This document shows, in pieces, positions 21,899-25,750 of a stretch of 64,000 nucleotides of DNA. This DNA comes from Variovorax sp. OV700. Lineage in GTDB: Bacteria > Pseudomonadota > Gammaproteobacteria > Burkholderiales > Burkholderiaceae_C. Both the position numbers and the translations under genes were made by a program. The notes below the pieces were generated by a model, which saw nothing but the letters and a program-made list of their open reading frames with translations, was not told the origin of the DNA and ran no database searches. The stretch spans positions 124,001 through 188,000 of the forward strand of contig NZ_FNDR01000003.1 in NCBI RefSeq assembly GCF_900099805.1. The letters run 5' to 3'. The number at the start of each line of letters is the position of its first letter. The first letter of the stretch is position 1.

Positions 21899-22729
21899 CT
21901 AGGTGGCCCAGATGCGCGGAGAACTCGCGGGCAACTGCCACAGCTCGGCGCGCCATGCCTGCCACACCTGCCGCAGCAGCTGCATCGCGGGCTCGACCAC
22001 CGGCGCGAGCACGCGCAGCACGACGATCTCGGCATGCGGGCTCGTCGCGCCGGCACTCTCCTGCAGGCCATGCGCATCGATGGCCGTGCGCGCGAGGGCA
22101 AGCAACGCCTCGCGCCGTGCCTTCGTGGACGGAGTGCCCGCCACGAAGAACAGCGAGGCGATGCAGCGGTGCCCGCCGAAGCCCAGCGGGCTTTGCAGCA
22201 GCCGATGGTCCGCCGCATCGATGCGGCCGCGCTCGAGCCAGACGCCGGGCACTTCGATGTGCTGCAGATAGGTGCCGCGCTCGAATGGCTGGTTGGCATT
22301 GGGCAAGCCGAGCGCCGTCACGTCCCAGCCGATCATTTCGGCGCCGGGTTCGGCCTCGATGGTGAGCCGGTTCTCGGCCCGGCAGCCGCTGTAGCAGATA
22401 GCCTCCAGCGGCAGCCATTCGAGCCGCGCGCCCCTGGCAAGCCGGATGCGCGTACGCTGCAGCGCCAGTTCGCCTTCAGAGCGGTAGAAGCGCGACGCGC
22501 CGGGCGTGGTGATCAGGCCGTGGCTCCCGTCTGCCGCCTCGATGTCAATGTCCAGCGTGTCGCCGCCCACCAGCCCGCCCGGCGGATGCACCAGCACGTT
22601 GTGGCAGATCGCGTCGCCCTCCGGATAGAGGCTTTGCAGAATTCGAAGCGGCCCGTCATGCCGAAAGCGCGCGACGCTGCGAGCGGATTCGTGCCGGTAA
22701 TCGAGGTGGAGACGTGCGTGCCAGGACAT
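21899..22729 (-). CDS. ureD: Urease accessory protein UreD
   Basis: A 276-residue protein with UreD/UreH signatures: HDGPLRILQSLYPEG, HNVLVHPPGGLVGGD, TTPGASRFYRS, ARLEWLPLEAICYSGC and EMIGWDVTALGLP. UreD forms the UreDFG complex that delivers nickel to apo-urease. No urease subunit or other ure gene is visible on either side: downstream is the convergent lysR gene, upstream a deaminase and an NMT1-type receptor with the same orientation. So this ureD is either separated from the rest of its cluster or a second copy. It is 39 bases from the deaminase gene and probably co-transcribed. Confidence 0.9.
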   Translation of the reverse strand: MSWHARLHLDYRHESARSVARFRHDGPLRILQSLYPEGDAICHNVLVHPPGGLVGGDTLDIDIEAADGSHGLITTPGASRFYRSEGELALQRTRIRLARGARLEWLPLEAICYSGCRAENRLTIEAEPGAEMIGWDVTALGLPNANQPFERGTYLQHIEVPGVWLERGRIDAADHRLLQSPLGFGGHRCIASLFFVAGTPSTKARREALLALARTAIDAHGLQESAGATSPHAEIVVLRVLAPVVEPAMQLLRQVWQAWRAELWQLPASSPRIWAT

Positions 22730-22768: not shown

Positions 22769-23305
22769 CTAGCTGACCCAGGCCCCATCGTGGGCGGCGC
22801 TCGCTTCGTCGATCAGCGCGGGGCCGATGCATTCGATCGGGTGTGGAGAGGCGTGGAACACGTCGCGGCACGACAGTTCCGCATCGCGCTGGTCCTGCCG
22901 CTCGCCGCGGAACACGCGCAGCCGCTCCGCATCGATGCCGTACACCACGCGGCCGATGTTCGACCAGAAGATGGCGCCCGCGCACATCACGCAGGGCTCG
23001 CCCGATGCATAAATGGTGGCGCCGGCGAGCTCCTCGCGAGTGAGGCCGCGCCCCGCGAGCGCGCGCAGGGCATTCACTTCCGCGTGCGCGGTGCAGTCGC
23101 CGGTCTCGGCATTGCTGTTGCCCGCTTCGGCCAGCACTTCGCCGTCGGCCGAGACGATGAGCGAGCCAAAGGGCCGGTTGCCTCGGCGTCGAGCCGCATG
23201 CGACCAGACGATGGCCTTGCGAAGGTAGCGTTCGTCGCGCTCGTCGAGCGTGGTTTCTTCAGGGAATGCGATATGGCTGCCAGCGGAATTCATGTCTTCG
23301 ATCAT
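22769..23305 (-). CDS. Nucleoside/nucleobase deaminase (CMP/dCMP deaminase zinc family)
   Basis: A 178-residue protein with the zinc-deaminase motifs CTAHAEVNALRAL (His ligand and catalytic Glu) and SGEPCVMCAGAI (two Cys ligands), followed by the RVVYGID strand typical of guanine/tRNA-adenosine-type deaminases. Substrate cannot be set from sequence; guanine, cytosine or another amino-heterocycle is possible. Its start overlaps the stop of the NMT1-type receptor gene by 4 bases, so receptor and deaminase are translationally coupled, suggesting that the imported compound is deaminated. Confidence 0.88.
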   Translation of the reverse strand: MIEDMNSAGSHIAFPEETTLDERDERYLRKAIVWSHAARRRGNRPFGSLIVSADGEVLAEAGNSNAETGDCTAHAEVNALRALAGRGLTREELAGATIYASGEPCVMCAGAIFWSNIGRVVYGIDAERLRVFRGERQDQRDAELSCRDVFHASPHPIECIGPALIDEASAAHDGAWVS

Positions 23306-24336
23306 GTCTTGAGTGGGGTTCGTTCGCTGCGCAATGGCAGCATCGAAGTATTGAAGATCGCGTCAGACGCGGGCTTGACCTTGAGGCCGAATACTTCGAC
23401 GACCTCGTCGACCTGCAGCTCTAGCGTGAGCTTGTTGATTTCGCCCAGGCCGTGGCTTCGCGTATCGGCGGCGCCCACATATTGCGCCGTGACGCCCCAG
23501 CGTTCAAGCTCCATCCTTTCGTCGAGGATGGGTTCGCGCTGGCGCAGGGCCGCAATGCTGGGCGCGGGGTTGGCAAAGGTCTCGACGATAGCGCGGTTGG
23601 TGGCGCGCAGAAAGGCCGCAACCAGCTTCGGATTTTGCGCGATCAGGTTGCTGCTCGCGAGAATGGCGTTGCCGTACAGGTTGACGCCCGCGTCCGCATA
23701 CTTGAGCACAGAAAGCTCCTCCGGCTTCATGCGCGCAAAGAGCGAAATCGCCGAGTCATGAAAGTAAGTGGCGGCATCCACGTCGCCGCGCACCATCACG
23801 TTGTCGCGCGCGCTGAAGTCCGTCGTCTGCCACTGGAACGCATCGCTGCGCATGCCTTGCTTGCGCGCCACCATCGGCCAGGCGCGGCGGGTGGATTCGA
23901 CGGCCGCGGCCGCCACCTTCTTGCCCGCAAGGCTCTTGAAATCGTTCGTCACACCGCGGTCCTTGCGGCCGATGATGACGAAGGGCGCGCGGTTGTAGTA
24001 CTGGTACACGGCCTGGACCATCGGTGTTCCGGGGTTCTGCGCATTGAACTCCACCAGCGAACTGATGTCGCCCAGGCCCATCTGGTAGACGCCGCTCGCA
24101 ATGCGCGTGATCGAGGCGACCGATCCGGCGCCGGTATCAATGGTCACGTCGAGCCCTTCATCCCTGTAGTAGCCCTTGCTATGCGCAAGAAAGAATGGCG
24201 CGGTCTGACCGTTGATGCGGAAGTCGAGCGTGAACTTGAGTGGGGTCAGCTTGCCGCCGCCCTGGGCGAACACGGCAGGGGCGGCGAGAGGGAGCAGGGT
24301 GGCGGCGCTGGCGCCAAGAAAAAGTCGACGTTGCAT
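23302..24336 (-). CDS. NMT1/THI5-type ABC transporter substrate-binding protein
   Basis: About 344 residues from the ATG at 24336, with a signal peptide (MQRRLFLGASAATLLPLAAPAVFAQ). The body shows the family pattern: PLKFTLDFRINGQTAPFFLAHSKGYYRDEGLDV, GVYQMGLGDIS, APFVIIGRKD and ARDNVMVRGDVDAATYF. These receptors bind pyrimidines such as hydroxymethylpyrimidine, riboflavin precursors, nitrate or sulfonates. It is clearly paralogous to the receptor at 36008-37042 but has no permease or ATPase beside it. It heads an operon with the deaminase and ureD, and faces the Rieske gene. Confidence 0.88.
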   Translation of the reverse strand: MQRRLFLGASAATLLPLAAPAVFAQGGGKLTPLKFTLDFRINGQTAPFFLAHSKGYYRDEGLDVTIDTGAGSVASITRIASGVYQMGLGDISSLVEFNAQNPGTPMVQAVYQYYNRAPFVIIGRKDRGVTNDFKSLAGKKVAAAAVESTRRAWPMVARKQGMRSDAFQWQTTDFSARDNVMVRGDVDAATYFHDSAISLFARMKPEELSVLKYADAGVNLYGNAILASSNLIAQNPKLVAAFLRATNRAIVETFANPAPSIAALRQREPILDERMELERWGVTAQYVGAADTRSHGLGEINKLTLELQVDEVVEVFGLKVKPASDAIFNTSMLPLRSERTPLKT

Positions 24337-24388
24337 GTGGGCCTCGGAATCATTGCGAGTCTTGAATCCCCCGCACAAGGCGGAGGCA

Positions 24389-24630
24389 CTTCAAGAGCAA
24401 TTTCCGGGCGGGCGCACAACGGTGGTGCGTGCGCTGCTGAACGCTTCTACTCTTGCGCGAGTTCATGCACGAGCCATGCCAAGCTGCATGCCACCGTCTT
24501 TTGCTCGGGCATTGCGACCAAGGCTTTGAAGTGGCGCCGGCCCGCGCCACAATGCGGGCGCGCAATTTGCAAGGCAAATGGCGCAGAGTAGAAGCGTTCA
24601 GCCCCCGCGGCAGGAAATTGCTCTTTCAAG
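24389..24630. repeat. Two-block inverted duplication between divergent receptor and Rieske genes
   Basis: The 331-bp gap holds two sequence blocks present once per strand. Block A is GGAAATTGCTCTT, at 24613-24625 on plus and 24393-24405 on minus. Block B is GCGCAGAGTAGAAGCGTTCAGC-like, at 24581-24602 on plus and 24436-24458 on minus with one extra base. Each divergent gene thus has block B then block A ahead of its start, with 10 bases between them on one side and 30 on the other. This looks like a duplicated promoter, operator or leader that co-regulates both genes. Confidence 0.75.
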
Positions 24631-24667
24631 TTCGTACGTACCCACGCGCAACCGAAGGAGTCCACGC

Positions 24668-25750
24668 ATGCTCGTCACCCAACAACCCGTCTTCCGCAAG
24701 TTCTGGCATGCCGTCATGCCGCTGACCGAACTCGCCAACGGCCCGAAGCCTTTCAGGCTGCTGGGCGAAGACATCGTTCTATTCGTCGACGCCGCCGGCC
24801 AGCCGGCCGCCTTGCGAGACCGCTGCTGCCATCGCACCGCGAAACTTTCGAAAGGCTGGTGCGTCGATGCCGAAGGCCAGGCCTGCGGGCAGGGCGCCAT
24901 CCAGTGCGGCTATCACGGTTGGACCTACGACCGCAGCGGGCAGGTGATCCGCATTCCGCAGTACGAGGCCGACCGAAAGATCTCGCCGGAGTACCGCACC
25001 ACCGCCTACCGCTGCACCGCGCGCTATGGCTACGCGTGGGTGGCGCTGGAAGAACCCATTGCCGATATTCCCGCCGTTCCGGAGTTCGACGATCCGGGCT
25101 ACCGCACCATCTTCCAGTTTTATGAAGAGTGGCAGACCAGCCCCATGCGCGCACTCGAAAACTCTTTCGACAACTCGCATTTCAGCTTTGTGCATCGCGC
25201 CACCTTCGGCGTGGCTGCGAGCCCGAAGCCGAGCAAGTACGAACTGGTGGAAAACGAGGGCGGCTTCTATGCCGAGACGGTGATCGAGGCGGTCAACCCG
25301 GTCAAGTTTCACGCCATCAGCGGCGTGACCGACCCGATCACCACGCGCCACATGCGCAACGCCTACTTCCTGCCGTTCTCGCGCCGGCTAGACATCGAAT
25401 ACCCGAGCGGCGTGCGCCACATCATCATCAACTGCTTCACGCCCATTGATGACGGCCGCATGCAGCTGTGCCAATGGCTGTTCCGCAACGATACCGAGGC
25501 CGATTGCACCGCGCAGATGCTGATCGATTTCGACGAGGCGGTGACGCGCGAGGACAAGGACATCCTCGAATCGACCGACCCCGATGCGCTGGTCGACACG
25601 CGCCGGCGCGGCGTCGAGTATTCGATGGAATCGGACCGGCCCGGCATGCTGATCCGCAAGCATCTGATGCAGCTGCTTGCGAAGCACGGCGAGGCGGAGG
25701 TCTACCGCGGCATGACGAGCGCGACGATTCCGATTGCAAAAGCCGCCTGA
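24668..25750 (+). CDS. Rieske [2Fe-2S] non-heme iron oxygenase, alpha-subunit type
   Basis: A 360-residue oxygenase from the ATG at 24668 (GAAGGAG upstream). The Rieske cluster ligands are visible as CCHR and CGYHGW within the first 90 residues, and the mononuclear iron site as ENSFDNSHFSFVH around residue 160-172. It fits single-component-alpha oxygenases that need a separate reductase; none is nearby. Such enzymes hydroxylate or demethylate aromatic and heterocyclic compounds. Sharing an inverted upstream element with the receptor/deaminase/ureD operon suggests that it acts on the same nitrogen heterocycle, which is inference. Confidence 0.88.
   Translation: MLVTQQPVFRKFWHAVMPLTELANGPKPFRLLGEDIVLFVDAAGQPAALRDRCCHRTAKLSKGWCVDAEGQACGQGAIQCGYHGWTYDRSGQVIRIPQYEADRKISPEYRTTAYRCTARYGYAWVALEEPIADIPAVPEFDDPGYRTIFQFYEEWQTSPMRALENSFDNSHFSFVHRATFGVAASPKPSKYELVENEGGFYAETVIEAVNPVKFHAISGVTDPITTRHMRNAYFLPFSRRLDIEYPSGVRHIIINCFTPIDDGRMQLCQWLFRNDTEADCTAQMLIDFDEAVTREDKDILESTDPDALVDTRRRGVEYSMESDRPGMLIRKHLMQLLAKHGEAEVYRGMTSATIPIAKAA

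Follow-up and report, generated by a model that had tools for sequence, protein, structure and literature searches.

The two sequence blocks that lie once on each strand between the divergent NMT1-type receptor and Rieske oxygenase genes of Variovorax sp. OV700 are, with high probability, two xanthine (NMT1-motif) riboswitches, one in each of the two 5′ leaders, as judged from their match to a known RNA family. In the window, i.e. the whole 64,000-nucleotide stretch of DNA that was analysed, the search with Rfam 15 at gathering thresholds gives two matches, both to RF03054, and a whole-genome search finds only these two in the organism's own genome. The elements and genes concerned are as follows.

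24390–24457, minus strand: xanthine riboswitch aptamer RF03054 in the NMT1-type receptor leader (cmscan 54.2 bits, gathering threshold 36, E 2.8e-09, model positions 1–56 of 56)
24581–24628, plus strand: xanthine riboswitch aptamer RF03054 in the Rieske oxygenase leader (cmscan 48.2 bits, gathering threshold 36, E 1.3e-07, model positions 1–56 of 56)
24458–24580, no strand assigned: stretch separating the aptamers, where both promoters are expected, with conserved segments in a 10-sequence alignment
23302–24336, minus strand: NMT1/THI5-like periplasmic substrate-binding protein gene, the receptor (Pfam PF09084, 126.7 bits)
22769–23305, minus strand: TadA-like deaminase gene with the cytidine/deoxycytidylate deaminase fold, following the receptor gene in its run (Pfam PF00383, 79.4 bits)
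21899–22729, minus strand: UreD-like gene, next in the receptor run (Pfam PF01774, 163.8 bits)
24668–25750, plus strand: Rieske oxygenase gene (Pfam Rieske PF00355, 66.0 bits)

The repeated blocks and the aptamer fold

The window repeat search returned a perfect 18-nt inverted repeat, AGAGTAGAAGCGTTCAGC (arms 24436–24453 and 24585–24602), and a second pair of 18-nt arms of 89% identity (24393–24410 and 24608–24625) with a perfect 13-nt core, GGAAATTGCTCTT. This bears out the initial annotation in that the blocks occur once per strand and in the same order ahead of both divergent starts, those of the receptor and the Rieske gene, and its 13-base block is recovered as the perfect core; of its block of about 22 bases, 18 are exact, but the remainder are flanks that match in part. 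The span it had given, 24389–24630, agrees almost to the base with the two Rfam matches (24390–24628), and the centre it had called asymmetric corresponds to the 123 bases between the aptamers (24458–24580), which fall outside the repeat.

In the aptamer, P1, J1, P2a, and the beginning of the P2b pairing make up the 5′ strand, which is the 18-mer; the 3′ strand, with J2, P2a, J1, and P1, is the 13-mer. According to the cmscan alignments, the junctions J1 and J2 and the stems P1, P2a, and P2b of RF03054 are present in both copies, and the P2b stem and loop differ between them in sequence and length. Since the P2b stem-loop is free to vary in the family, the two blocks are common to both copies, whereas the spacer between them (30 versus 10 nt) is not. 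By a strict count, at least four contiguous P2b pairs occur in 34 of 149 distinct arms, against a shuffled mean of 4.3 (maximum 10), with 12 different helices. The initial annotation had left the choice between an operator, a promoter, and an RNA leader, and the last of these is borne out by both copies exceeding the Rfam cut-off and sitting in 5′ leaders. Its term “duplicated” holds insofar as one aptamer class is present twice, but the identity is confined to the class-conserved part, with P2b being different.

That the blocks are instead a DNA operator or promoter element serving a shared transcription factor would be in keeping with their symmetric placement between divergent genes, and the short segments that 10 Variovorax loci conserve between their aptamers could be a separate operator. 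This reading is nevertheless highly improbable and was rejected, as the blocks correspond to the paired strands of an established RNA structure whose P2b stem covaries; they also lie, in 34 divergent close pairs, always on the sense strand of the leader, and the start codon is close and the Shine-Dalgarno sequence invariant in the 41-leader alignment.

With up to three mismatches, the 18-mer occurs in the window at these two sites only (0.02 expected) and elsewhere in the genome at three further sites, each with three mismatches; the genome-wide block search that the initial annotation had proposed thus yields no further copy above 15 of 18 matches. By itself the 13-mer is less telling, with three window matches at up to two mismatches versus 0.73 expected, a number reached in 4 of 100 shuffles. 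A plasmid search gave one match, at 76.3% identity, in a record of Variovorax sp. PDNC026 that carries no gene annotation there. The identity of the copies over 18 nt might also be taken as the mark of recent inverted duplication or of a dispersed repeat, in either case functionless. It is extremely improbable that this is so, given the genome's lack of an additional copy above 15 of 18 matches, the unlike P2b arms of the two copies, and the retention of the same blocks at loci in other genera, which marks the identity as constraint rather than recent copying; a mobile or dispersed repeat was rejected on the same genome search and on the blocks being RF03054 strands.

The NMT1-motif aptamer binds xanthine and uric acid (PMC7373994), with xanthine sandwiched against the end of P1 in the ligand pocket (PMC8266621), and a mutant with a broken P1 loses binding (PMC7373994). 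The OV700 elements resemble the motif as presented by Yu and Breaker (2020, PMC7373994) in aptamer consensus, structure, and host group, and also in gene partners, which there include an NMT1-type receptor, a Rieske-type dioxygenase, and a TadA-like deaminase. The class is characterised by a place in the 5′ leaders of genes for purine transport or oxidation, and here these genes are the NMT1-type receptor, the deaminase, and the Rieske oxygenase.

The deaminase gene overlaps the receptor gene by 4 bases, and its product scores 74.6 bits against the NCBIfam TadA model, below the cut-off of 150; no NCBIfam equivalog exceeds its cut-off for the receptor, the Rieske protein, or the deaminase. By sequence (phmmer), the solved structures nearest to the Rieske protein are NdmA (top, 105.9 bits), SxtT, SxtDIOX, and NdmB (100.3 bits), of which NdmA and NdmB are methylxanthine demethylases. 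As a separate observation, searches of the genome returned no UreD gene other than that at 21899–22729 on the minus strand and a single match to urease alpha, on another contig (C19); with the sole UreD behind the receptor riboswitch and urease alpha elsewhere, urease maturation may be tied to purine sensing.

Conservation and divergent pairing in relatives

Conservation in orthologous intergenic regions, the absence of which the initial annotation had held to count against its proposal, was assessed at the Rieske-orthologue loci of the best 80 of 243 relatives, some of which end at a contig edge. Within this set an aptamer precedes the Rieske gene in 71 of the 80 loci, a divergent aptamer pair with copies on both sides is found in 52, and 9 have no aptamer; the gap between paired aptamers ranges from 55 to 621 nt (median 112). 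The family sample gave 96 matches in 56 of 299 genomes, 55 genomes being above the cut-off, and all 34 pairs within 1 kb are divergent, with none convergent or tandem. In the class-wide sample, 4 of 369 genomes match, 2 of them in the own family of Variovorax sp. OV700 and 2 below the cut-off, which may mean that the element is concentrated in that family.

For the comparisons of leaders and pairs, copies were found by a strict sequence pattern rather than by the covariance model, so that variant aptamers are missed. The 202 copies were assigned to genes by tblastn against four reference proteins, giving 86 Rieske, 86 NMT1, 27 pcbC-type, 1 deaminase, and 2 unassigned copies, “pcbC” standing for a reference taken from a single reading frame of locus L150, with Pfam matches to 2OG-Fe(II) oxygenase and DIOX_N. 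In the family loci, the partner of the receptor is pcbC-type in 23 pairs and Rieske in 3; the Rieske-anchored loci hold 53 receptor/Rieske pairs, a count biased by the anchoring.

Adjacent NMT1 motifs in opposing orientations have been reported for Hydrogenophaga intermedia S1 (Yu and Breaker 2020, legend of Figure 5, PMC7373994), and the OV700 arrangement is alike in having two adjacent copies in opposite orientation. It differs in the second arm, which is the Rieske oxygenase in OV700 and pcbC in H. intermedia. The sensor and its divergent arrangement are therefore already known, and what is added here is a proposal on the output ends.

Some loci depart from the compact layout. At L069 an NlpC/P60 gene (2329–2853, minus strand; Pfam 91.1 bits) lies between the two aptamers, showing that a gene can split the pair with both aptamers kept, and the long gaps of 621 and 591 nt belong one to L069 and the other to L060. 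As to the region between the OV700 aptamers, no sigma-70 consensus site was found in 24300–24700, and no promoter is claimed for that reason; neither was a transcriptional terminator-like site found in that interval, on which ground a terminator-type expression platform was rejected. Ten Variovorax loci share stretches between the aptamers, e.g. CATGCACGA-(n)-GCATGCCAAGG and GGGCGCGCAAnTTGCA, which are candidate promoters or a candidate operator.

Output ends of the leaders

P1 belongs to the bound fold (PMC8266621, PMC7373994), and any other helix that uses the P1 3′ strand would accordingly compete with the ligand; without ligand, this strand would be free for downstream pairing. The predicted partners in the two OV700 leaders are given below.

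24620–24661, plus strand: in the Rieske leader, a predicted hairpin between the P1 3′ strand GCUCUUUC and GAAGGAGU, covering the Shine-Dalgarno sequence (folding energy −12.3 kcal/mol, z −2.30, matched by 4 of 200 shuffles)
24655–24660, plus strand: Shine-Dalgarno sequence AAGGAG of the Rieske gene, read from sequence
24360–24396, minus strand: in the receptor leader, a predicted anti-P1 hairpin between the P1 3′ strand CUCUUGA and UUCAAGA, with the upper stem CCUCCGC/GCGGGGG (folding energy −21.9 kcal/mol, z −1.58, matched by 14 of 200 shuffles)
24342–24345, minus strand: likely Shine-Dalgarno sequence GAGG of the receptor gene, read from sequence by resemblance

The alignments took 41 of 55 listed Rieske leaders and 34 of 45 listed receptor leaders. 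In the 41 Variovorax-type Rieske leaders AAGGAG is invariant, and RNAalifold predicts exactly eight pairs of the P1 3′ strand with the Shine-Dalgarno sequence. Seven of the eight core pairs are invariant and hence uninformative for covariation; the single variable pair, which falls just beyond P1 and beyond the Shine-Dalgarno core, is C-G in 36 leaders, G-C in 3, U-G in 1, and unpaired in 1. The covariation score of the hairpin is 0.093 versus 0.065 in shuffled alignments (reached in 0 of 500) and at most 0.038 when the strands are slid, but the number of pairs changed on both sides shows no excess (2 versus a shuffled mean of 2.0, 349 of 500), and the RNAalifold covariation terms are small (−0.13 and −0.11 for the Rieske and receptor sets). 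Rieske leaders of other genera have extensions of the hairpin that change on both sides, e.g. GAAA:UUUC in L143, GAUA:UAUC in L146, and CGG:CCG in L094.

A wider comparison used the leaders that are distinct and long enough (71 of 86 Rieske, 85 of 86 receptor, and 26 of 27 pcbC-type), thinned to 45, 56, and 24, respectively. In 39 of the 45 Rieske leaders, which come from several genera, the P1 3′ strand finds its best partner in a segment overlapping the Shine-Dalgarno sequence; among receptor leaders this holds for 20 of 56, and among pcbC-type leaders for 7 of 24. In permutation tests, for which relatedness was thinned by similarity and not by tree, the P1 3′ strand of Rieske leaders pairs better with its own partner than with swapped ones, a gain reached in 0 of 20000 permutations. 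With 16 strongly thinned leaders the figure is 1 of 20000 (78 of 20000 when limited to the last 24 nt), and with the 15 leaders left after removal of Variovorax it is 5 of 20000 (154 of 20000 for the last 24 nt). The corresponding gain in the last 24 nt is weak in receptor leaders (837 of 20000) and absent in pcbC-type leaders (9264 of 20000), a point against the proposed output ends.

The accessibility of the ribosome-binding site was computed with and without enforced P1 by means of fold energies that omit tertiary contacts and the ligand. Leaders above 200 nt (1 receptor and 1 pcbC-type, by subtraction) and those lacking a Shine-Dalgarno sequence (11 receptor, 1 Rieske, and 2 pcbC-type) were left out, leaving 74 receptor, 85 Rieske, and 24 pcbC-type leaders. 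With P1 enforced, the Rieske site becomes more accessible (0.38, up from 0.10), with an increase of more than 0.1 in 67 of the 85 leaders, a decrease in 3, and 15 in between; the OV700 site goes from 0.00 to 0.28. The site opens in 58 of 58 leaders (by subtraction) of the Variovorax group, defined by a list of locus ids that includes an assembly titled Burkholderiales bacterium 8X, and the 27 leaders outside it are mixed (9 up, 3 down, 15 in between). When the linker is shuffled, site accessibility is 0.31 against 0.20 observed, with the observed value being lower in 18 of 28 cases; the P1 3′ strand CUCUU is itself anti-Shine-Dalgarno-like, which means that part of the pairing comes free. Folding of the Variovorax Rieske leaders revealed no masking partner that requires a formed P1. 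It is possible on these models, if somewhat short of an even chance, that the ligand turns translation of the Rieske gene ON.

The receptor leaders have a different end. The anti-P1 hairpin is the consensus structure of the 34 Variovorax receptor leaders, in which CUUGAA pairs with a downstream UUCAAG and closes a hairpin with a variable upper stem. Enforcing P1 here moves the accessibility from 0.28 to 0.29 with no trend (28 up, 18 down, 28 in between; n = 74). The OV700 receptor site drops from 0.25 to 0.05, which would be OFF; the run that gave this value comprised 41 receptor leaders, those without an MQRR start or a recognised Shine-Dalgarno sequence being excluded.

The pcbC-type leaders present two further layouts. 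In seven of them (L124, L139, L140, L142, L156, L159, and L160) a near-perfect anti-P1 copy, CUUCAAGAGC or similar, faces GCUCUUGAAG at 60–136 nt ahead of the start codon and off the Shine-Dalgarno sequence. In the short ones (L120, L121, L123, L138, L150, and L165) pairing of the P1 3′ strand with the Shine-Dalgarno sequence is feasible as in the Rieske leaders, and a possible ON design might therefore extend beyond Rieske genes.

Polarity of the response

In some translational riboswitches, the closing stem of the aptamer competes with an anti-Shine-Dalgarno hairpin, as in the add adenine riboswitch, which is ON. The Rieske leader would be alike in that one aptamer strand serves both the bound fold and the masking hairpin, with the aptamer class being different and the OV700 case built on sequence comparison and folding. 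In the model proposed here, the Rieske leader without ligand would have its Shine-Dalgarno sequence blocked by the GCUCUUUC:GAAGGAGU pairing and translation would be low; upon ligand binding P1 would form, freeing the site and raising translation (ON). In the receptor leader without ligand, the P1 3′ strand would be held by the anti-P1 strand (CUUGAA:UUCAAG), and the ligand would break this hairpin, following which the Shine-Dalgarno sequence could be masked (OFF). The net effect of xanthine or urate would be less uptake and more oxidation. That the same aptamer is thus used twice with opposite outputs, the ligand shutting the receptor run and opening Rieske translation, is put forward tentatively, as a reading we hold to be rather doubtful; we infer the opposite polarity as a point open to test, for which the folding is clear in Variovorax leaders and mixed outside the genus. 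The initial annotation had the two units locked into common control, and in this respect one ligand class is indeed expected for both leaders, but their predicted output ends differ, and the two may therefore respond with different signs.

The proposed OFF response of the receptor leader agrees with the published reporter for the class, as the H. intermedia construct in E. coli was OFF, the wild type being lower than the binding mutant (Yu and Breaker, PMC7373994). The same result also argues for both leaders being OFF, i.e. for end-product feedback in which xanthine or urate represses uptake as well as oxidation through masking of the ribosome-binding site in the bound state. Yu and Breaker (PMC7373994) moreover call the class OFF and place all its genes before xanthine and urate. 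This alternative comes close to an even chance. It has to be noted that the published assignment comes from one representative, examined by mutant and medium, the text available describing no in-cell ligand titration (PMC7373994). Against repression of the Rieske gene speak the lack of a P1-dependent masking partner in the folded Variovorax Rieske leaders and the opening of the site by P1 throughout the Variovorax group, as well as the nearness of the protein to methylxanthine demethylases, by virtue of which it need not act upstream of xanthine.

The opposite-output model therefore differs from the published NMT1 class, described as OFF from one reporter (PMC7373994), in that the Rieske leaders look built for ON. 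No report of an ON xanthine riboswitch was met in the xanthine-riboswitch literature looked at, although one may exist. Yu and Breaker (PMC7373994) themselves remark that no enzyme consuming oxidised purines figures in their gene list.

With the aptamer assignment, an unexplained repeat becomes a named regulator that indicates the signal to which both genes answer. Should the polarity proposal prove right, it would point to the Rieske enzyme using up oxidised purines instead of producing them, which would explain why a class regarded as OFF only had no xanthine- or urate-consuming genes, and the opposite outputs would constitute an ON branch of that class, serving an oxidised-purine-consuming enzyme. 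Variovorax would then provide a natural paired test, with the same aptamer core in the same DNA region attached to output ends of opposite sign.
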